Shown: piece by piece, positions 52,173 through 64,000 of the stretch
How the letters are laid out: each line of letters starts with the position of its first letter
How positions within the stretch are numbered: position 1 is the first letter of the stretch
Source of the DNA: Sulfurospirillum oryzae
GTDB taxonomy: Bacteria > Campylobacterota > Campylobacteria > Campylobacterales > Sulfurospirillaceae
DNA: 64,000 nt
NCBI RefSeq assembly: GCF_025770725.1
Contig: NZ_JANZKZ010000001.1
Location: 682,001 to 746,000, forward strand
Direction: 5' to 3'
Program-made: the position numbers and the translations under genes
Notes under the pieces: generated by a model
What the model was told of the DNA's origin: nothing
The model's input: only the letters and a program-made list of their open reading frames with translations
The model's database searches: none

Positions 52173-53015
52173 CTACTTGATAAGACTATAAAGCAGTGCA
52201 ATCTCTTCTGCCCATATTGAATCATCGATTGTTTCAAGCACTAAAGGGATGTCATTCATGCGTTCGTCATTCATGATAAACTTGAACGGCTCTAATCCTA
52301 ATTTTCCCTTTCCGATAGAATCATGTCTATCGACACGAGTGCCTAGATCTGGCTTAGAATCATTAAGATGCATTCCTTTAAGATACTTAAATCCGACGAT
52401 TGTAGCAAATTTTTCCATCGTTTGCCTATATACATCTTCGCTTCTTATGTCGTAACCTGAAGTAAACAAGTGGCAGGTATCGATGCAAACCCCTACACGC
52501 TCTTTATCGATGGAATTATCCATAAGGTAGTTTAGGTGTTCCATTTTGTAACCCATATTACTTCCTTGCCCAGCTGTATTCTCAACAACGAGTGTAACAC
52601 TGTTTGTTTGGCGTAACACTTCATTCATAGATGCACTGATAAGCTCTAAACACGCCTCTTCGCTTATCTGTTTTAGATGGCTCCCTGGGTGAAAATTGAG
52701 CTTATCAAGCCCTAAAGCTTCGCAGCGTTTTACCTCATCTAAAAAGGCATTTAACGATTTTTCACGTGCTTCAAGCTCAGGATGCCCTAGATTAATCAAA
52801 TAACTATCGTGTGGTAGAACATGTTTGGGTAAAATCTCTGCAATCTCTAATTCACGCTTGAAACGATCAATTTCATCTTGTGTTAAAGATTTTCCTTCCC
52901 ATTGACGTTGATTTTTTGTAAAAAGTGCAAACGCTTTTGCTCCAATTTTTGTGGCATTGATAGGAGCATTAAACACTCCGCCACTTGCACTCACATGTGC
53001 TCCAACAAATTTCAT
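52173..53015 (-). CDS. nfo: Endonuclease IV
   Basis: A 280-residue TIM-barrel AP endonuclease. The zinc ligands lie in [52 protein letters not shown] and LETIDD. It cuts abasic sites in base excision repair. It is 9 bases after the lipoprotein gene on the same strand and needs zinc, in keeping with the adjacent zinc genes. Confidence 0.96.
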
Positions 53016-54897: not shown

Positions 54898-55659
54898 ATG
54901 CAAAACGATATACAAATCAATCACCTTTATTTTAGTTATGATGGCGCAACCGTGCTGGAGGACATTAACCTCCAGTACAACAAAAACGAATTTTTAGCCA
55001 TTATTGGGCCCAACGGTGGGGGTAAAAGCACCCTGCTTAAGATGATGATAGGCTTACTTGAGCCCGAGCGTGGCGAAGTGCTTCTTTTTGGTGAAAAACC
55101 TTTACATGTAAGCCATGAAATTGCCTATGTCCCTCAAGACACCATCGCCAATAAAGACTTCCCCATTAAAGTGATGGACGTTGTTCTTATGGGCAGACTT
55201 TCCAAATCTAAAGCTTTTGCAACCTACTCTAAAGAAGACAAAACTATCGCTTTAAGTATGTTAGAAAGAGTTGGCATGAAAGGGTTTGAAAACCAAAAAA
55301 TCAACACGCTCTCTGGCGGTCAACGCCAACGTGTTTTCATTGCACGTGCCCTTGCGTGTGAAGCAAAGATTATGTTTTTGGACGAACCAACAGCAAGCAT
55401 CGACACCGCAGGGCAAATCGATATGTTTAAACTACTCAAATCGCTCAACGAAACAGTGGGTATTGTTATCATCAGCCACGACATCAATGTTGCACTGAAT
55501 TACGCCACCAAAGTTGTCCATGTCAACAAAACGCTCTACGTCCACGATGTGCCAAAAACTCAAAATTTCAAAGTCTTTGAAAATCAAAATGAACACGTCT
55601 GTCCCGTTGAGCTTATCAGCGCAACCCGTTGTAACCACACGCATAAAGAACTTTCATGA
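54898..55659 (+). CDS. znuC: Zinc ABC transporter, ATP-binding protein
   Basis: A 253-residue ABC ATPase with Walker A GPNGGGKST, Q-loop VPQD, signature LSGGQRQR and Walker B IMFLDEPT. It has a C-terminal Cys/His segment (HVCPVELISATRCNHTH) that may bind metal. It overlaps znuB by 4 bases. Palindrome at 55103-55110. Confidence 0.92.
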   Translation: MQNDIQINHLYFSYDGATVLEDINLQYNKNEFLAIIGPNGGGKSTLLKMMIGLLEPERGEVLLFGEKPLHVSHEIAYVPQDTIANKDFPIKVMDVVLMGRLSKSKAFATYSKEDKTIALSMLERVGMKGFENQKINTLSGGQRQRVFIARALACEAKIMFLDEPTASIDTAGQIDMFKLLKSLNETVGIVIISHDINVALNYATKVVHVNKTLYVHDVPKTQNFKVFENQNEHVCPVELISATRCNHTHKELS

Positions 55660-56462
55660 TGGACATACTCAACTTTGATTTTATGCAAAATGCACTTTTT
55701 GCATCCTTGTTAGTCAGCATTATTTGTGGTGTCATTGGGACATTGACCGTTATTAATCGCATGGTCTTCATTGCGGGCGGTATTGCCCATGGCTCGTATG
55801 GTGGCATTGGCTTAGCGCTTTATTTTGGCATTGCTCCAATGCTTGGTGCTTCACTTTTTTCGCTTTTTTTAGGGGCTATCATCGCTTATATTACCCACCA
55901 CAACAATGCACGTCTTGATGCACTCATTGGTGTATTGTGGGCATTTGGAATGGCGCTTGGTATTATTATGACTGACCTAACTCCGGGCTACAATGTTGAT
56001 TTGATGAGTTATCTTTTTGGTGCTATTTTATCCGTAACGCCTGAAGATCTTTATGGAATGGGCGCTGTGCTCGTCGTAGTCTTAAGCTTTGCTATCATTT
56101 TTTACAAACAACTTTTGGCGATGAGTTTTGATGCCCAGTTTGCAAAACTTCGAGGCATTAATGTCACTTGGCTCTATTTTGCTTTGGTTTTGATCATAGC
56201 ACTAGGTGTTGTGATTATCATCCGTGCGGTGGGGCTTATTTTAGTGATTGCTTTGCTTACCATTCCACCTTACATTGCAGAGAAATTTACCAATTCTGTG
56301 GGAGGCATGATGATCGTTTCATCGCTTCTTTCAGCACTCTTTTGCACGGTTGGACTTTATCTCTCTTACAGCTTCAACCTTAGTGGCGGAGCTTCCATTA
56401 TTTTAGTGGCAACAACAACCTTTTTTCTCCAGCTTCTCTATAGCAGGTACTTCAAATCTTAG
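55656..56462 (+). CDS. znuB: Zinc ABC transporter, permease
   Basis: A 268-residue ABC-3 family permease with seven to eight membrane helices, including GGIAHGSYGGIGLALYFGI and LIVIALLTIPPYIAEK-like segments. It forms the channel with ZnuC. Its stop overlaps that of the convergent EamA gene by four bases. Confidence 0.92.
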   Translation: MMDILNFDFMQNALFASLLVSIICGVIGTLTVINRMVFIAGGIAHGSYGGIGLALYFGIAPMLGASLFSLFLGAIIAYITHHNNARLDALIGVLWAFGMALGIIMTDLTPGYNVDLMSYLFGAILSVTPEDLYGMGAVLVVVLSFAIIFYKQLLAMSFDAQFAKLRGINVTWLYFALVLIIALGVVIIIRAVGLILVIALLTIPPYIAEKFTNSVGGMMIVSSLLSALFCTVGLYLSYSFNLSGGASIILVATTTFFLQLLYSRYFKS

Positions 56463-57364
56463 ACGGCATTTTTTCGTCTGCGGTATTGCTCCATAAAGTA
56501 AGAACCCAGTTCTGCGATGAGCATACCGCCTAAAATCATCACCGCACCACAAATTTGTGGAAAAGTTAAAAGTTCATTGGCAAAGAAATAGCCAAAAATT
56601 CCTGCACTGACAGGTTCCATCGTAAAAATAATCGCTGTTTTTGCCGCTGTGGTAAAACGCTGCATGGCTGTTTGCACCCAAAAGGCAAAGATCGTTGCAA
56701 AAATAACCGTAATGGCAATAGCATTCATAAACAACATATCCGTTCTAGGTGGAATGATAGAGCCATCCATCATAAAACCGCCAATAAAAGAGCACACACC
56801 TACCGTTAGAAATTGAATGGTCACTAAAAGATAAATATTGTGTTGACGTGAAAGATGCCCCGTAAAAACAATATGCAGTGCAAACATCATAGCACACACA
56901 AAAGCATAAAATTCACCTAACGAAAAACCTAATTCGTTATTGAGTGTTAAAAAATAGAGCCCGATAGACGCTATGATAGCGCCTAATGTTGAAAACAGTG
57001 AAGCTTTCTGCTTGAAGATAAGATACGTTACAAAAGGAACGACAATCACACTTAACCCTGTAATAAAACCAACCGTAGAAGAGTAAGTATATGTAAGCGC
57101 AAATGTTTGAAATGCATAACCTAAGAACATAAAAAGACCCAAAAGAGAGCCTGCTTTTAAAACCTCACGGTTGAAATAACGCAGTTGTTTAAATGAAATT
57201 AATAGCATTAAAGAACCTGCTAAGAAAAACCGCCAAAATAAAAAGGTATAAACAGGTGTTTCATTAACCGCAGCTTGTACCACAAAAAAAGTACTTCCCC
57301 ATGCAACGGCTACCATTAAAAGTAAAAAATCTGCGCCCAATTCTCTTAGTTTATGACTAATCAA
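56459..57364 (-). CDS. EamA/DMT-family transporter
   Basis: I propose the TTG at 57362-57364 (301 residues), because GAGGTG lies 4-5 bases upstream; the frame is open to 57430. Ten membrane helices form two EamA repeats, with AVAWGSTFFVVQAAV at the start of the first and a MEPVSAGIFGYFFANE segment in the second. Such proteins export metabolites or amino acids; the substrate is unknown. Adjacent to zinc genes only by convergence. Confidence 0.8.
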   Translation of the reverse strand: MISHKLRELGADFLLLMVAVAWGSTFFVVQAAVNETPVYTFLFWRFFLAGSLMLLISFKQLRYFNREVLKAGSLLGLFMFLGYAFQTFALTYTYSSTVGFITGLSVIVVPFVTYLIFKQKASLFSTLGAIIASIGLYFLTLNNELGFSLGEFYAFVCAMMFALHIVFTGHLSRQHNIYLLVTIQFLTVGVCSFIGGFMMDGSIIPPRTDMLFMNAIAITVIFATIFAFWVQTAMQRFTTAAKTAIIFTMEPVSAGIFGYFFANELLTFPQICGAVMILGGMLIAELGSYFMEQYRRRKNAV

Positions 57365-57482
57365 TATACACCTCAACTTTGATAAGAGCAAAATTGTAGC
57401 ACAATGAAGTGTAGAAAAATAGAGCATCAAGAGTAAAATTTCGCCAAGAAAGAAAATTTTATTTATCTCTCTTGCAAGAACA

Positions 57483-57491
57483 TGCTATAAT
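57483..57491 (+). promoter_or_regulatory. Extended -10 promoter of the cytochrome pair
   Basis: TGCTATAAT, an exact extended -10, gives a leader of about 46 bases with GGAGG at 57530-57534. Confidence 0.65.
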
Positions 57492-57543
57492 CCAAACTTA
57501 GTAAAATATTTTTATACTTATTTAATCTTGGAGGCTTTTAGTC

Positions 57544-57870
57544 ATGGTTCAGCACATTAAAATCTCCCTTCTCTCAATCCTATTTTTATCTTCATTATTA
57601 CATGCCGCCCAAGAACAAACCGTTCGAGGGGAAACACTCTTTAAGCAATGTGCAGGATGTCATGGAAGTGATGGTCGCAATAAAGCCTTTGGTAAAAGCG
57701 GAATCATCGCGGGGCAGAGTGTTATAGAGCTTATGGAAAGCCTAAAATTTTATAAAGAGAGTGAGTTTAAAACCCACAGTACGACTCTGGTTATGTCCAA
57801 ACAAGTTAAGAACATGAATATGGAAGATTTAAGTGAGGTTGCGAACTACGTTTCAAAATTACAAAAATAG
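57544..57870 (+). CDS. Monohaem c-type cytochrome (class I, c553-like)
   Basis: A 108-residue protein with a signal peptide (cut after LLHAA), one haem motif CAGCH at residues 36-40 and candidate distal Met ligands near VMSKQ and NMNME. It is a periplasmic electron carrier. The next gene, 16 bases downstream, encodes a protein of the same size and start (AVRGKNFYAQYLKPVCG) without a haem motif. Confidence 0.88.
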   Translation: MVQHIKISLLSILFLSSLLHAAQEQTVRGETLFKQCAGCHGSDGRNKAFGKSGIIAGQSVIELMESLKFYKESEFKTHSTTLVMSKQVKNMNMEDLSEVANYVSKLQK

Positions 57871-57886
57871 CCTTTAAAGGATCCCT

Positions 57887-58201
57887 GTGAAAAAGATTTT
57901 TTATGCCATACTCGTTAGTACGTGTTTGCTTTCTACATCTCTTTATGCAAGTGCCGTTAGAGGAAAAAACTTTTATGCACAGTATTTAAAACCCGTATGC
58001 GGCTTTAACGGTGAAGTTATGGGGAAAAAGCACACTGCAAATGAATGGAAAACGTTTAATGATAACAATCAACTCAATCTTGCAATTAAAGCACTCTGCC
58101 CTAACGCTCCTTTAATTACTACGGAAAAAGATCTTACAAATTTATATCACTTTTTAAGTTCTTTTGCCAGCGATAGTGGCAATGTACCCTCGTGCAATTA
58201 A
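57887..58201 (+). CDS. Secreted cytochrome-like protein lacking the haem-binding motif
   Basis: A 104-residue protein from GTG (AAGGA upstream) with a signal peptide (ending SLYAS). Residues 25-40 (VRGKNFYAQYLKPVCGF) resemble the start of class I cytochromes, but the CxxCH is absent; only one Cys remains there, with others at LCPNA and near the C-terminus. The C-terminal TNLYHFLSSFAS helix is like that of cytochrome c553. It probably works with the upstream cytochrome. Confidence 0.7.
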   Translation: MKKIFYAILVSTCLLSTSLYASAVRGKNFYAQYLKPVCGFNGEVMGKKHTANEWKTFNDNNQLNLAIKALCPNAPLITTEKDLTNLYHFLSSFASDSGNVPSCN

Positions 58202-58255
58202 CGATTTTGAGCTTTTACAATTATCAAAGTTCTTTATCTTACTTTTATATTCTAC

Positions 58256-58264
58256 TGCTACAAT
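58256..58264 (+). promoter_or_regulatory. Extended -10 promoter of the amino-acid ABC operon
   Basis: TGCTACAAT is one base off the extended -10 consensus. It lies 36 bases before the ATG; GAAAGG precedes the start. Confidence 0.5.
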
Positions 58265-58299
58265 TATGGTTTACGCCACATAATGAAAGAAAGGTTTGA

Positions 58300-59040
58300 A
58301 TGAGTCAAGCTATTGTTCGCATGGAAAATGTTAATAAATATTATGGCGATTTTCATGTTCTTAAAAATATAAATTTTTCCGTTACGGAAGGCGAAATTGT
58401 TGTTATTTGCGGACCTAGTGGTAGCGGTAAATCAACGCTTATTCGTTGTATAAATAAACTTGAAGAGATTGATAACGGTGAGATCGTTATTGACGGATTT
58501 GATCTCTATGCAAAAAAAGTTAACATTAACCAAGTTCGTGCCGAAACGGGCATGGTTTTCCAACACTTCAATCTTTTTCCCCATTTAACGATTTTAGAAA
58601 ATATTACCATCGCGCAACGCAAAGTCAAGGGTATTAGCAAACATGACGCCAATGAAGCAGCTCTTAAACTTCTAGAACGTGTAGGCTTAGTACACAAAGC
58701 TGAGGGCTATCCAAATGAGCTTAGTGGTGGTCAAAAACAACGTGTGGCTATTGCTAGAACATTGGCAATGAAACCCAAAATTATTTTATTTGATGAACCA
58801 ACTTCTGCCCTTGATCCTGAGATGATTGGTGGTGTTTTGGATGTTATGCGTGAACTTGCACATGAAAATTTTACCATTGTTTGCGTTACCCATGAAATGG
58901 GTTTTGCTAAAGAAGTTTGCGATCGTATCGTCTTTATGGATGAAGGTGTCATCATTGAAGAAGCCACTCCTGAAGCTTTCTTTGCCAATCCAAAAACAGA
59001 ACGTGCTCAGAAATTTTTACAAGAGATATTAACACATTAA
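58300..59040 (+). CDS. Polar amino-acid ABC transporter, ATP-binding protein
   Basis: A 246-residue ATPase with Walker [21 protein letters not shown], signature LSGGQKQR and [13 protein letters not shown], which is the GlnQ/HisP/PAAT group pattern. It starts an operon ATPase-binding protein-permease with short gaps of 26 and 3 bases. Glutamine, aspartate/glutamate or cystine are possible substrates. Confidence 0.92.
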
Positions 59041-59066
59041 AAACTAAACCCTTAAGGAGAGTAGCA

Positions 59067-59867
59067 ATGAAGAAACTTTTAGCGGCATTACTTGTAATGC
59101 TTGGCATTAATGCTATGGCTGATGATATCAACCTATGGCAAAAATCAACCCTCAACAGTATCGTTCAAAAAGGTGTTCTAACCGTTGGTTTGGAACCTGG
59201 TTATATGCCTTTTGAAATGAAAGACAAACAAGGCAATATCATCGGTTTTGACGTAGATATGGCAAATGAAATGGCAAAAGCAATGGGTGTTAAACTCCAA
59301 CTTGTTCCAACCGCATGGGATGGTATCATCGCAGGTCTTTTAACAGGCAAATATGACATCATTATGTCTGGTATGACGATTACACAAGAGAGAAACCTCA
59401 AAATCAACTTTGCTGATCCTTACATCAGCGTAGGCCAAACAATCCTCGCACCTAAAAAACATGCTGGTAAAAAATGGAGCGATTTGGATAAACCAGAATA
59501 CACTATCGTTACTAAAATTGGTGTAACAGGCGAAATTGCAACACGTAAAATGTTCAAAAAAGCAAAAATCAGAACCTTTGAAACAGAAGCTGATGCTGCA
59601 CAAGAAGTTCTTAATGGCAATGCAGACGGTCTTGTTTATGACAAACCATACAACGCTATTTTCTTTGCGGAAAAAGGTACAGATAAACTTGTTCACTTAA
59701 GTGAAGAATTGACTTATGAGCCTCTTGGTTTTGCGATTCGCAAAGGTGATCCTGATTTCCTTAACTGGTTGAATAACTTCCTAAATCAAGCAAAAAATGA
59801 CGGTACTTACAAAAAAATCTATGACAGATGGTTCACAGATTCTTCTTGGCAAAAAAAGGTAATGTAA
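59067..59867 (+). CDS. Polar amino-acid ABC transporter, periplasmic binding protein
   Basis: A 266-residue SBP_bac_3 protein with a signal peptide (ending INAMAD), the GLEPGYMPFEMKD start, GFDVDMANEMAKAMG and MSGMTITQERN segments typical of the glutamine/arginine-binding family. No lipobox. The ligand cannot be told apart from sequence alone. Confidence 0.9.
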   Translation: MKKLLAALLVMLGINAMADDINLWQKSTLNSIVQKGVLTVGLEPGYMPFEMKDKQGNIIGFDVDMANEMAKAMGVKLQLVPTAWDGIIAGLLTGKYDIIMSGMTITQERNLKINFADPYISVGQTILAPKKHAGKKWSDLDKPEYTIVTKIGVTGEIATRKMFKKAKIRTFETEADAAQEVLNGNADGLVYDKPYNAIFFAEKGTDKLVHLSEELTYEPLGFAIRKGDPDFLNWLNNFLNQAKNDGTYKKIYDRWFTDSSWQKKVM

Positions 59868-59870
59868 GCA

Positions 59871-60836
59871 GTGGCAAAAGGAAAACAACATCTTTTGCAC
59901 AATAAAGCATTCGGTCACGTAGTGGCCGTTGCTTTTTATGTTGCAGTTGGGTACTTACTCTTTGTGGCTGCGTCCAACATGAATTACATTTGGAAATGGA
60001 CTAGTGTTCCAAAATACTTCGCGTATGAAAAAACAGATACGATAACTGCACCACTTGATGGAACAATACAAATCCGCGGAACATCTTTGATTATTCAAGG
60101 ACGAGACGATAGTAAAGAGATAGAAATAGAAAAGGGTTATTCCCTTGACGTTAAAGATGGTGATAGTGTTTACGAACGTGATACTCTTGCTAAAAAAACA
60201 TCAATGCACATAGGACCCTTACTTGAAGGTTTAATTGTTACACTCGAGATTTCAGGGCTTGCTGCAATTTTAGCCTTTTCCATAGGTTCACTTCTTGCTT
60301 TCATGCGTATTTCGAATTACCAGTTTTTAAAAGATATAGCGACTGTTTATATCGCAATTATAAGAGGAACACCTCTTCTGGTTCAAATTTTTATCTTCTA
60401 TTTTATTATCGCTACGATATTTGAACTTGAGCGCTTTCTTGCAGGTGCTATCTCATTAGGGCTTTTCTTTGGAGCTTATATTGCTGAAGTATTGCGTGGA
60501 GCGATTCAATCTATCGATAAAGGACAGTATGAAGCTGCCAAATCACTCGGTATGAACTATACACAAACCATGATCTATATCATCATGCCTCAAGCGCTTA
60601 AACGAGCACTTCCTACCCTTGTAGGAGAGATGATAGCACTTGTAAAAGACTCTTCATTGGTTTCTGTTATTTCCATTACAGACCTTACAAAAGTAGGTCG
60701 TGAAATTGTTGCCAATACCTTTTCACCATTTGAAACATGGCTTATTATAGCAGCAGTTTATTTTGCAATTACATTTTTACTCTCAGTATTCGGACACAAA
60801 ATCGAAATGAAAATGAAAAAACAAGGTGGTATGTAA
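59871..60836 (+). CDS. Polar amino-acid ABC permease with an inserted periplasmic lipoyl-like domain
   Basis: A 321-residue permease from GTG, longer than the usual 220-250. The first helix (about residues 16-33) is followed by a hydrophilic segment of about 75 residues with ITAPLDGTI and DVKDGDSVYERDTLAKK, which resembles the half-sandwich of lipoyl or HlyD-type domains. The HisMQ core then starts at GLIVTLEISGLAA and contains the EAA loop YEAAKSLGMNYTQTMIYIIMPQAL (in part). The extra domain may contact the binding protein. Terminator hairpin at the stop. Confidence 0.85.
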   Translation: MAKGKQHLLHNKAFGHVVAVAFYVAVGYLLFVAASNMNYIWKWTSVPKYFAYEKTDTITAPLDGTIQIRGTSLIIQGRDDSKEIEIEKGYSLDVKDGDSVYERDTLAKKTSMHIGPLLEGLIVTLEISGLAAILAFSIGSLLAFMRISNYQFLKDIATVYIAIIRGTPLLVQIFIFYFIIATIFELERFLAGAISLGLFFGAYIAEVLRGAIQSIDKGQYEAAKSLGMNYTQTMIYIIMPQALKRALPTLVGEMIALVKDSSLVSVISITDLTKVGREIVANTFSPFETWLIIAAVYFAITFLLSVFGHKIEMKMKKQGGM

Positions 60837-60853
60837 GTCTTTGCTTACATACC
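60828..60853. terminator. Terminator hairpin after the amino-acid ABC operon
   Basis: GGTATGTAAG (60828-60837) pairs with CTTACATACC (60844-60853) around TCTTTG; the left arm includes the permease stop codon. No long T-run follows on the plus strand, and the convergent PilZ gene ends 7 bases after the stem. Confidence 0.65.
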
Positions 60854-60859
60854 CCATCA

Positions 60860-62023
60860 TTACTCTACATACTCTTTTAACTCATTATTAAGATCTTCTA
60901 AAATCTCGTGCTCGCGTTTTGTAATGTAATGAAGTATCTTTTGGCTCATTGCACGATCGGGAAAAATACGCATGCAGTAACGATAAGAATCTTTGTACTC
61001 AATGATATTGATCACTTCGCCTTGCACTTCTATCTTTCTATCGCGATCAGCAGCCACAGAAGCGCTGTTAAGTTCAAATTCAATGAGAACTTTTGCACCT
61101 ACAAACATTCCATTATTTTCGCTACTGACAACACCTAGTCCATTCATAGAAAGGTCATAAAGCCTTCCACTTGTTTGAAGATTGCCAAATTGATGTAGAA
61201 AAACTTTAGCAACAATATCAGGATGCACCCGAATAAACTCTCTTTGAAGTGCTGGCATATTGAGTAAATAAATAAAGTTGGTTAAGACCACGGTATTGGC
61301 TTGAAAATTATTGTAAACAATATCTGCTTTGAGGTGTTTACTAAAATGGTTATTTTTGACAATAAAAGCTTGCCCGTCTAACTTCATAGCAATTTCTTGC
61401 AACTTGTCTATTTTAAAAGTGACATTTTCACCTTCAATATCAAGAATTGTTGCTTCAGAACTAATCGGAACACCTTTATAAAGATTAAGAAAAATCACAC
61501 TTTGATTTTCTTGTTTCATTTGATGAAACGTTTCAATAATGTTGTTAGTTGGAGAGAACATAATATCATTGCTAAAGCTGACATCCAATGCACTTGTAAA
61601 ATTGCATACTTTAGGCGTTACCTCATCCTCAACGATATTGATAAACCGACTTATGCAACCTATTAGAAGTTCAACTTGTGAAGAAATTTCATGTTCATGC
61701 GAGAATGAAATATAATTTTCAATCAAATAAAATACGCTTCGATTGATAAGAAAACCAATCATAACTCTATCATATTGCATACGATCAAAAAGATTTTCTC
61801 TAAACTCACTAATGTCATAATCAGACTTAAACAAGGCATGATAAATACTAAAAGCGATCTCTTTTGACTCTTCTTTTGTAACTATCTTATCGTAGTTGAC
61901 ATACATGCAAGCAAAATAATCAACAAACTTCTCTTCAAACTCTTTTAAAAAAAGTGCCGACGTCGCTAAAAAGTCCTCTTTGTCACTTTGAGAAATAACT
62001 TCATTTTCCATCGTAGTGTCCAT
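60860..62023 (-). CDS. PilZ-domain protein (probable c-di-GMP receptor)
   Basis: A 387-residue soluble protein. The N-terminal 150 residues are helical (FEEKFVDYFACMYVNYDKI, in part) like globin-type or sensor bundles. The C-terminal part holds a PilZ domain with RxxxR (REFIR, about residue 261) and the D-x-S-x-x-G motif as DLSMNG (about residue 288). These residues bind c-di-GMP in characterised PilZ proteins. It stands next to a two-component system, but in its own transcription unit. No enzymatic domain is present. Confidence 0.8.
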   Translation of the reverse strand: MDTTMENEVISQSDKEDFLATSALFLKEFEEKFVDYFACMYVNYDKIVTKEESKEIAFSIYHALFKSDYDISEFRENLFDRMQYDRVMIGFLINRSVFYLIENYISFSHEHEISSQVELLIGCISRFINIVEDEVTPKVCNFTSALDVSFSNDIMFSPTNNIIETFHQMKQENQSVIFLNLYKGVPISSEATILDIEGENVTFKIDKLQEIAMKLDGQAFIVKNNHFSKHLKADIVYNNFQANTVVLTNFIYLLNMPALQREFIRVHPDIVAKVFLHQFGNLQTSGRLYDLSMNGLGVVSSENNGMFVGAKVLIEFELNSASVAADRDRKIEVQGEVINIIEYKDSYRYCMRIFPDRAMSQKILHYITKREHEILEDLNNELKEYVE

Positions 62024-62047
62024 GATGATGATTTTGCATTGATTATA

Positions 62048-62908
62048 TCATTTTTTATTTAGGAGGTATGAAATATCCAAAATAACTTCGGTACCTACAT
62101 ACTTTTGTGAATTGATGCGCATTGAAATTTTAAACTCATCGCAATACGCTTTTACCAAACTAAGCCCTATACCATAACCTTCTTTTGTCATATCCGCTTG
62201 GTAATAGCGATTAAATGCTAGAAAAAGCTCTGACTCACTCATCCCAACACCTTTATCTTTGATGCAAAGTTTATTTCCTTCTTGAAAAATACGAATTTCG
62301 GAATGATCTTGATTGTATTTAAGTGCGTTATGCAATAAGTTGGAAATGACTTTAGCAAAACCATGTTTATCAGCAAAAATTTCTACATGTAAAACATCAC
62401 AAAGAATTAAAACACCCGAAGCCATCTCTTTTTGTTTTTCAACAACCTTCGAGATAAGCTCGTCTAAATAAAATTTTTCACGAACATCCGTTTGGATCTC
62501 TTTTTTAATGTAATAATCCACTTCTTTATAGAGTGCATACAAGTCTTTACTGGCTAGTTCAATACGCTCTAACCGTTTAAGCTTTTTAGCCTCTTGCTCA
62601 TCGGCTTGAAGCATTTGAAGATTGGCATTGATCACTGAGAGCGGAATGTTGAGCTCATGCAAGGTGTCCTTGAGCAAAATATCAAGAAAACGGTTGGTTT
62701 TAAACAAGGAAGAAAGTGTATAAGAGACGATGAGATACCCAATGATTAAAGAAGTAGCAAGCAAAGTAACTATCACCCAAGCTTTGTTTTCTCCAGAGTA
62801 TTCCCATAAGGCAACACCAAAGCCTGTTATAAAACATATAGCAATGCTGAATGCTACAATTGAGCGAATAAAAAAGATTTTATCGCTACTTCTCAAAACG
62901 ATACCCAA
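62048..62908 (-). CDS. Sensor histidine kinase
   Basis: A 286-residue kinase with two membrane helices (about residues 13-33 and 43-63) enclosing only about 9 residues, so it cannot hold a large periplasmic sensor. H-box DTLHELNIPL with His84, N-box LLHNALKYN, G1 DKGVGMSE and G2 GYGIGLSL are all present. It overlaps the response-regulator gene by 23 bases. It probably senses a membrane-associated or internal cue. Confidence 0.9.
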   Translation of the reverse strand: MGIVLRSSDKIFFIRSIVAFSIAICFITGFGVALWEYSGENKAWVIVTLLATSLIIGYLIVSYTLSSLFKTNRFLDILLKDTLHELNIPLSVINANLQMLQADEQEAKKLKRLERIELASKDLYALYKEVDYYIKKEIQTDVREKFYLDELISKVVEKQKEMASGVLILCDVLHVEIFADKHGFAKVISNLLHNALKYNQDHSEIRIFQEGNKLCIKDKGVGMSESELFLAFNRYYQADMTKEGYGIGLSLVKAYCDEFKISMRINSQKYVGTEVILDISYLLNKK

Positions 62909-63551
62909 TTCCTCGAATATTTAAAATGCTATCTTTGCCAAAAATCTTTTTGAGATTATTGATATAAACCCTAATTGACCCCTCGTTAATCTCTTCACAG
63001 CTATTCCAAAGTCTTTCATGAATCATCTCTTTGGTGACCACTTTGCCTCGCTCTTTAACCAACAAATAAAGCAGTTCAAAATCTTTGAGATTGATGTCGA
63101 GCTCTTCTTGGTTGTAAAAAAGGCGTTTACGCGCAAGATTAAGCTTGTACGCATCATCAATATCAAGCCAATCATCCACGATTCCTTTTGAGCGCGCTAA
63201 AAGTGCTTTGATGCGCAATAAAAGCTCACCAAGATCAAAAGGCTTTTTAATATAATCATCGCCGCCTAGCATAAAGCCTTTAGTAAGGCTCTCTTGATCA
63301 CTAAGCGACGTCACAAAAATAGCAGGAGTTCGATCTCCCGATACACGAAGTTCTTTTAAAAAATCAAACCCGCTAAGATCGGGTACTTTAACATCCAAAA
63401 GATAAAGATCATACTTGTTTTCATAGCATTGTTTGAGCGCCTCTTTACCACTTGAAACCAAAGTACATACATAGTCATGTTCGCTTAAAAAATCTTCCAA
63501 GGTTTGAAGAAGTAACGTGTTGTCTTCTAAAATAAGAATTTTATACGACAT
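62886..63551 (-). CDS. OmpR-family response regulator
   Basis: A 221-residue protein from the ATG of 63549-63551 ([11 protein letters not shown]), with TTGGAG upstream. The receiver domain carries Asp53 as phosphoacceptor ([11 protein letters not shown]) and the Lys of IKKPF. The C-terminal winged helix ([20 protein letters not shown] onward, in part, and [15 protein letters not shown]) binds DNA. It works with the kinase encoded right after it. Its start overlaps the end of pyrC by 11 bases. Confidence 0.92.
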
Positions 63552-64000
63552 GTTTAATGCTCCAAGCGAGTGACTCGTTAGCAAACATAGGGACAACGTC
63601 ACCATAACTGTGTGTTACAACAAATGGAGTATTCTCTAAGCAAACCTCTTTGTGTAGGGCTTTATAGTTATAAATTGTTTGTGCGTTGTTACTTACAAAC
63701 GCTTGTAGAGAAGCTAATGCGTTATGTTTGTCAAACAACTCTACTAAAACTTGCAAAGCAATCGGTGCAGTAAAAACTCCCGCCGCACAACCACAACACT
63801 CTTTTTTATGAATCGGATGTGGTGCAGAATCACTTCCAAACATCACTTTGGGATGTGCTTTAAGGCTTACATGTAAAAGTGCATCACGGTCTTCATATCG
63901 CTTGGCAATTGGCTTACAAAAAAGGTGCGGTTGAAGCATACCGCCTGCAACATCATCTAACGTTATCAGGAGGTGATGTAATGTAATCGTTGCATACAAG
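63541..64000 (-). CDS. pyrC: Dihydroorotase (C-terminal part, cut by window edge)
   Basis: At least 152 residues of a type II dihydroorotase: [27 protein letters not shown] with the catalytic Asp, [22 protein letters not shown], all close to E. coli PyrC. It catalyses the third step of pyrimidine synthesis. The N-terminal part lies beyond base 64000. It overlaps the response-regulator start. Palindrome at 63868-63875 reads Leu-His-Val. Confidence 0.93.

Follow-up and report, generated by a model that had tools for sequence, protein, structure and literature searches.

The window, the whole 64,000-nucleotide stretch of Sulfurospirillum oryzae DNA that was analysed, encodes an amino-acid ABC importer permease. 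As judged from its sequence and structural models, this permease has gained a compact barrel-sandwich hybrid between an aromatic pre-membrane helix and the first canonical core helix. The module is a real and conserved domain insertion, and apparently an unnamed one. The features discussed below are as follows.

58300-59040, forward strand: GlnQ-like ABC ATPase of the same operon (GlnQ model 329.9 bits, below the equivalog cut-off of 379)
59067-59867, forward strand: family-3 solute-binding protein (SBP_bac_3, 1.1e-44; closest solved relative 3k4u)
59871-60836, forward strand: amino-acid ABC importer permease, 321 aa, GTG start (open reading frame; BPD_transp_1 and HEQRo_perm_3TM matches)
59904-59975, forward strand: extra N-terminal transmembrane helix, residues 12-35 (full-length model and sequence; orientation putative)
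59982-60020, forward strand: conserved aromatic stretch NYIWKWTSVPKYF, residues 38-50, with a model helix at 43-50 (conservation among 73 homologues)
60021-60212, forward strand: inserted barrel-sandwich hybrid (lipoyl-like) module, residues 51-114 (model, fold matches and weak profile matches)
60042-60062, forward strand: half-motif 1, ITAPLDG, residues 58-64 (conservation)
60150-60191, forward strand: half-motif 2, VKDGDSVYERDTLA, residues 94-107 (conservation; paired by hhalign with lipoyl VKVGDKVKAGQTVC)
60213-60833, forward strand: canonical permease core, residues 115-321 (HEQRo_perm_3TM, full-length model and alignment with ArtQ 4yms_C)

The genes are arranged in the order ATPase, binding protein and permease, all on the forward strand, and the permease GTG lies three bases past the stop codon of the binding-protein gene. 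BPD_transp_1 (Pfam) matched the permease at 70.9 bits against a cut-off of 26.4, and HEQRo_perm_3TM (NCBIfam) matched residues 115-210 at 84.8 bits against a cut-off of 42.2. A profile match above the curated cut-off, combined with an operon that holds a family-3 binding protein and an ATPase, places the protein among the polar amino-acid ABC permeases. Every Pfam or NCBIfam match on the permease begins at residue 112 or later. The system is a polar/cationic amino-acid ABC importer consisting of an ATPase, a binding protein and one permease gene. Since the operon has a single permease gene, the channel is presumably a homodimer. The closest solved structure to the binding protein is 3k4u (E 4.7e-103), which we take to be a Wolinella succinogenes protein with bound lysine, and its next relatives are reconstructed ancestors (AncCDT-1). 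Given that the ligands of these relatives are lysine and L-arginine, a cationic amino acid is the probable substrate. The binding of L-arginine by AncCDT-1 is stated in excerpts of the report on that protein (PMC7683729). As a further substrate clue, a lysine riboswitch or other upstream RNA was sought at 57400-61000, and none reached the gathering score.

The structure of the full-length permease was predicted with AlphaFold from a 73-sequence alignment (mean pLDDT 75, pTM 0.58). The model has a helix at residues 12-35, a short helix at 43-50 and core helices from residue 116, the first of which spans 116-147. Strands of the module were placed at 51-59, 64-69, 72-76, 81-85 and 105-114, and the module is less confident in this model, with a pLDDT of about 69-77 by blocks of ten. 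The N-terminus of the extra helix is probably inside, because its start is rich in Lys and His. In the aromatic stretch that follows, N38, Y39, W41, W43, Y49 and F50 are invariant among the 73 homologues, and the Aeromonas counterpart of this stretch is DYTWRWERIPQYI.

The original prediction had pointed to a long segment after the first helix at 59990-60200, which corresponds to about residues 40-110. Such a segment is present: about 80 residues separate helix 12-35 from core helix 116-147. A paralogue without the insert from the same genus (L034) has an N-terminal helix and a shorter aromatic stub, YEFHWESIYAYKQKFIDGFFMT. Its spacing from the Trp to the Gly of the first core helix is 13 residues, compared with 77 in the window's permease (W43 to G120), so the true insertion comprises about 64 residues (51-114). 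Structural alignment of the full-length model with chain C of 4yms, which we take to be ArtQ of the Art(QN)2 amino-acid importer, gave a Z score of 20.9 over 203 residues at 2.5 Å (residues 39-315 against 1-214). The permease core is therefore common to the two proteins, and at 220 aa the 4yms permease falls short of the window's by roughly the length of the extra helix plus the module. The sequence match to 4yms begins at residue 117 of the window's permease and at residue 15 of 4yms (phmmer, 4.5e-41). Since the structural match runs from residue 39 and the sequence match from residue 117, the insert of this otherwise standard permease follows an N-terminal stub and precedes the first membrane helix. 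A fold search run with the complete permease was uninformative on the module itself.

Residues 49-117 were also folded alone, from a 73-sequence alignment, and gave an all-beta model with a pLDDT of 91.1 and a pTM of 0.68. Foldseek of this model against the PDB returned no match at E <= 0.001, and the best match had an E of 4.1e-3 with a probability of 1.00. The best 50 of the 665 PDB matches (E <= 10) were to RNA polymerase, the Si3-tail domain or cytochrome f / b6f, and the 50 VIA-align rows were of the same kinds. The top VIA-align match among those listed was Thermus thermophilus RpoC 246-309 (Z 9.7, rmsd 1.7 Å, 59 of 69 residues); cytochrome f 1ci3 aligned over 69 residues with a Z of 8.4 and an rmsd of 2.9. 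The superposition on RpoC, a known member, indicates that the predicted fold is a barrel-sandwich hybrid, as had been anticipated from the half-motifs; the refuting outcome named with that prediction, a predicted structure lacking this fold, was thus not observed. The predicted fold is common to the module, the RNA polymerase beta' hybrids (T. thermophilus RpoC 246-309 and also about 1255-1329) and the small domain of cytochrome f. These are other proteins with other functions, and their similarity to the module in sequence is marginal (RPOC_hybrid, best E 3.2e-4). A search of a viral structure library with the module gave nothing under an E of 0.05; the named rows include M23 peptidases, an RNA polymerase and a dihydrolipoyl succinyltransferase.

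Profile searches with the insert gave weak but mostly coherent barrel-sandwich matches. In Pfam at E <= 1, RPOC_hybrid (PF21668) matched 8 of 42 insert sequences, Peptidase_M23 matched 6, and Apocytochr_F_C, Biotin_lipoyl_2 and PTS_EIIA_1 matched 3 each, although the window's own sequence had no match. Fifteen further, mixed families matched 1 or 2 members each, and PF00364 was absent from the 20 families. We take RPOC_hybrid, Peptidase_M23, the cytochrome f C-terminal family, Biotin_lipoyl_2 and PTS EIIA to share the barrel-sandwich hybrid fold. Among 73 sequences scanned against NCBIfam, PRK06149 (presumably an aminotransferase with a fused M23-like domain) matched 5, and PRK02597 beta', cytochrome f, RpoC2 and RND_mfp matched 3 each. 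These leading families presumably share the same fold. Ribosomal L6, FlgG, LptA and GroES were among the families with 1 or 2 matches. No domain model naming the module was found in the Pfam and NCBIfam scans. The RPOC_hybrid domain search in 60 relatives gave one weak match, and a profile search of PDB sequences with the insert returned only Collar CD1362 (E 0.48) and NusG (E 0.74). Matches of the 73 sequences to PHROGs were all weak, the commonest being a metallo-endopeptidase family (5/73). Hits to fimbrial PapA and FosB from a single insert sequence (E about 1) were treated as chance, as were FosB/Lsa19 matches at E 0.055-0.071.

To compare the insert with lipoyl/biotinyl domains, an insert profile of 74 rows (Aeromonas included) was aligned by hhalign with a profile of 21 such domains from related genomes, these being the domains of at least 70 residues among 28 extracted. 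The alignment had a probability of 49.8 and a score of 24.5 over 21 columns, and paired VKDGDSVYERDTLAKKTSMHI with VKVGDKVKAGQTVCIVEAMKI. As controls, 16 segments of the operon's own proteins were run, each half-overlapping its neighbour, and 15 were counted. The segment left out, permease residues 108-179 (score 28.8), was set aside because it overlaps the end of the module. Scores of the 15 segments lying outside the module were 6.4-12.9 with the insert and did not exceed 18.6 with the lipoyl profile. Both half-motifs of the original prediction are present and are conserved among the 73 homologues: G64 is invariant, Asp occupies position 63 in 67 of them and position 104 in 71, Ala occupies position 107 in 66, and Pro occupies position 61 in 62.

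The likeness to lipoyl and HlyD domains proposed at the outset is therefore upheld for the fold and the half-motifs, and the module is neither a lipoyl/biotinyl carrier nor HlyD-like in architecture. Biotinyl/lipoyl domains (PF00364) and HlyD-type Biotin_lipoyl_2 (PF13533) share the half-motif V..GD.V..G..LA with the module. Unlike biotinyl/lipoyl domains, with which 21 columns align, the module has about 30 residues with strands between its half-motifs and no conserved acceptor Lys. At the column paired by hhalign with the biotin/lipoyl Lys (H113), 26 of 73 homologues have Lys, in agreement with the early remark that no Lys occupies a modification position. The columns richest in Lys are K54 (42/73), K82 (40/73) and K109 (38/73), none of them conserved. 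A PF00364-type carrier was ruled out because the acceptor Lys is not conserved among the 73 homologues. An HlyD-like periplasmic adaptor was ruled out because neither model has an alpha-helical hairpin between the half-motifs, and residues 51-114 contain no helix in the full-length or the module-alone model; moreover, the nearest structures are of polymerase and cytochrome f. Among the 73 homologues, no conserved polar cluster was found in the module beyond the turn residues D63 and D104. D63, G64, D104 and A107, together with the junction residues Y49, F50, G115 and P116, look structural.

The gene with the module occurs in 24 of 24 same-genus genomes, in other Campylobacterota including Nautiliaceae and Arcobacteraceae, and in Aeromonas, so that the insert is no chance feature. 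In one same-genus draft genome (G020; L032 / L037), the permease is split over two overlapping reading frames within the insert region, which is either a frame change or an assembly error. Of 398 genomes sampled from the order, 79 matched the permease (E <= 1e-40), 76 of them with the N-terminal part and the insert. Of the other three, G278 and G343 matched over the core only and may therefore be paralogues, and G384 matched over the C-terminal part only. A matching binding protein (E <= 1e-65) was found in 75 of the 398 genomes, all among the 76 with the insert-bearing permease, so that no genome (0/75) had the binding protein without it. The one insert-bearing genome of the 76 without a matching binding protein was G318, in which the gene lies near a contig end (L045). 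In the phylum sample, 52 of 397 genomes matched at E <= 1e-40, 51 over the insert and one (G343) over the core only.

Genome contigs, one genome per species, were scanned with rigid peptide patterns, giving 101 stretches and 88 relatives, of which 80 were kept. All but four of the 80 loci are titled Sulfurospirillum, Arcobacteraceae, Nautiliaceae, Campylobacterales and the like. The others are titled Proteobacteria (L069, L093), Gammaproteobacteria (L114) and bacterium (L145). The permeases of L114, L093 and L069 are 66-94% identical to that of the window, and these three are probably mislabelled Campylobacterota bins. A binding-protein gene lies directly upstream of the permease gene (within 150 bases) in 78 of 80 loci, and in the remaining two the sequence runs out at a contig end. 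In 68 of 80 there is an ATPase gene upstream; seven loci lack room and five have none in the stretch examined. Five of the 80 loci (L127, L133, L140, L141 and L146) have two tandem binding-protein genes before a single insert-bearing permease gene, and so do G269, G359, G375, G209 and G396 in the order sample; these operons are Arcobacter-type. A viral contig scan found no relative among 207 stretches.

The same insert had been suggested as something to look for in other phyla, and an Aeromonas caviae permease does carry it (L152, NZ_AP026896.1). There the system has the order binding protein, permease and ATPase. The Aeromonas permease is 43% identical to that of the window over 307 residues with no gap; identity is 28% for the module and 52% for the binding protein. 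The record is deposited as a plasmid yet is 4.9 Mb long, and is therefore probably a mislabelled chromosome. It was the only plasmid record found by tblastn apart from a weak match (E 0.1) in Pigmentibacter. This match (H4), on Pigmentibacter ruber plasmid AP029161.1 at 52322-52504, is to a hypothetical protein weakly like the Aeromonas module. Outside Campylobacterota the module is thus known here from one genus, and its spread there has probably been under-sampled. A core tree was built from 27 permeases (one of 28 rows was too short and was left out), with sparsely filled columns, including the insert, dropped. All 14 rows that carry the insert lie to one side of a single branch with support 85/81, which is compatible with a single origin. 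The Aeromonas branch is long and unsure in its place, and the program warned of false joining.

Co-evolution was assessed by partial correlation of distances, a crude test in which pairs are non-independent. Of 81 loci (the window's and the 80 relatives), L087, L098 and L111 were excluded at the start; among the 78 left, 64 contained complete copies of all three genes. Given the other parts, the partial correlation of module with binding-protein divergence in these 64 operons was 0.01; values for the module were 0.31 with the ATPase, 0.28 with the core and 0.14 with the N-terminal part. The module is the fastest-changing part: its mean divergence is 0.65, compared with 0.42 in the N-terminal part, 0.27 in the binding protein, 0.26 in the ATPase and 0.24 in the core. 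Despite this rapid evolution it has been retained. Mean net charges over the 64 operons are opposite (module -6.8, binding protein +6.7), and the two do not co-vary across operons (r -0.16). The window's own module and binding protein have charges of -4 and 0.

In solved relatives, the first core helix starts on the periplasmic side. Given this N-terminus and an added inside-to-outside helix with a basic start, the module would lie on the periplasmic face, beside the landing site of the binding protein. With one permease gene in the operon, two copies of the module would be expected per transporter. The precedent for such a domain is MalF-P2, likewise an extra periplasmic domain of a type I importer permease, which differs from the module in chain position and fold. 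In excerpts of one study, MalF-P2 is a domain inserted in the maltose importer that contacts its binding protein and spans MalF residues 91-271, about 180 residues (PMC3150292). By analogy, the module most likely serves the binding protein as a platform for docking or guiding, without catalysis, in the way that MalF-P2 serves MalE, and would also hold both copies of the added helix against the core. We put the probability of this reading at about 45%; binding-protein docking had been raised in the original prediction too. It is favoured by the position and length of the module, the fold matches, the weak family matches, the lipoyl score above controls, the lack of a conserved Lys or of a conserved polar cluster beyond the turn residues, the 78/80 adjacent binding-protein genes, the upstream ATPase genes, the 75/75 co-occurrence, the opposite mean charges and the MalF-P2 precedent. 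The partial correlation of 0.01, charges that do not track each other and the window's charges of -4 and 0 argue against it, as does the lower confidence of the module in the full-length model, and the fast divergence is unlike a precise interface. More tentatively, a cofactor-free lipoyl-like hybrid may have been recruited as a periplasmic docking and gating platform in a two-phylum importer lineage, with two copies flanking the binding protein, as an independent counterpart of MalF-P2.

Since the divergence and charge results oppose a tight, specific contact, other roles were weighed against docking. Somewhat unlikely is a structural clamp, in which the module would brace the extra helix against core helix 1 or pair the permease copies, stabilising assembly or a periplasmic gate without specific binding-protein contact. 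The lack of partial correlation with the binding protein agrees with such a clamp, as does the invariance of the module-end residues Y49, F50, G115 and P116 while most other module columns vary. However, same-genus paralogues have an N-terminal hydrophobic helix without a module, so the extra helix does not need it, and the persistence of the module from Nautiliaceae to Aeromonas suggests that it does more than bracing. Fast divergence would also suit a decoration that is mostly neutral, with one permease lineage inheriting a domain insertion that it tolerates, and the single branch of insert-bearing rows in the core tree is compatible with this. We consider decoration distinctly improbable: no order-sample genome has a matching binding protein without the insert permease, and the half-motifs have survived in two phyla whose modules share 28% identity.

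Very improbable is a sensor, in which an ion or small ligand bound to the module would adjust transport. The module is probably at the entrance, and ligand binding is known for beta modules; no specific sign of it was found, and the polar positions conserved are the turn residues D63 and D104. The original prediction also raised a link to another envelope part, and an HlyD/periplasmic-adaptor-like element touching another envelope protein would fit the half-motif likeness and the very weak RND_mfp (3/73) and HlyD (2/73) matches. This is the least probable role, with hardly any weight: both models lack a helix inside the module, and in Pfam none of the seven neighbouring ORFs (55656-58201 and 60860-63605) belongs to an adaptor or outer-membrane channel family, one of them being without a match.

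The usual picture of amino-acid importers in this family is a minimal one, in which the binding protein docks directly on the membrane helices. In searches of the open-access literature, none of the papers listed described a comparable module of an amino-acid permease in its title or the start of its abstract. If conserved outside the membrane in several Campylobacterota families, the module would offer a natural experiment on how far docking and gating can be moved out of the membrane, and swap and deletion tests are simple because paralogues without the module exist.

On the reverse strand, convergent to the permease gene, a PilZ-domain protein is encoded at 60860-62023 (PilZ, 30.9 bits), followed at 62048-63605 by a histidine kinase and a response regulator.
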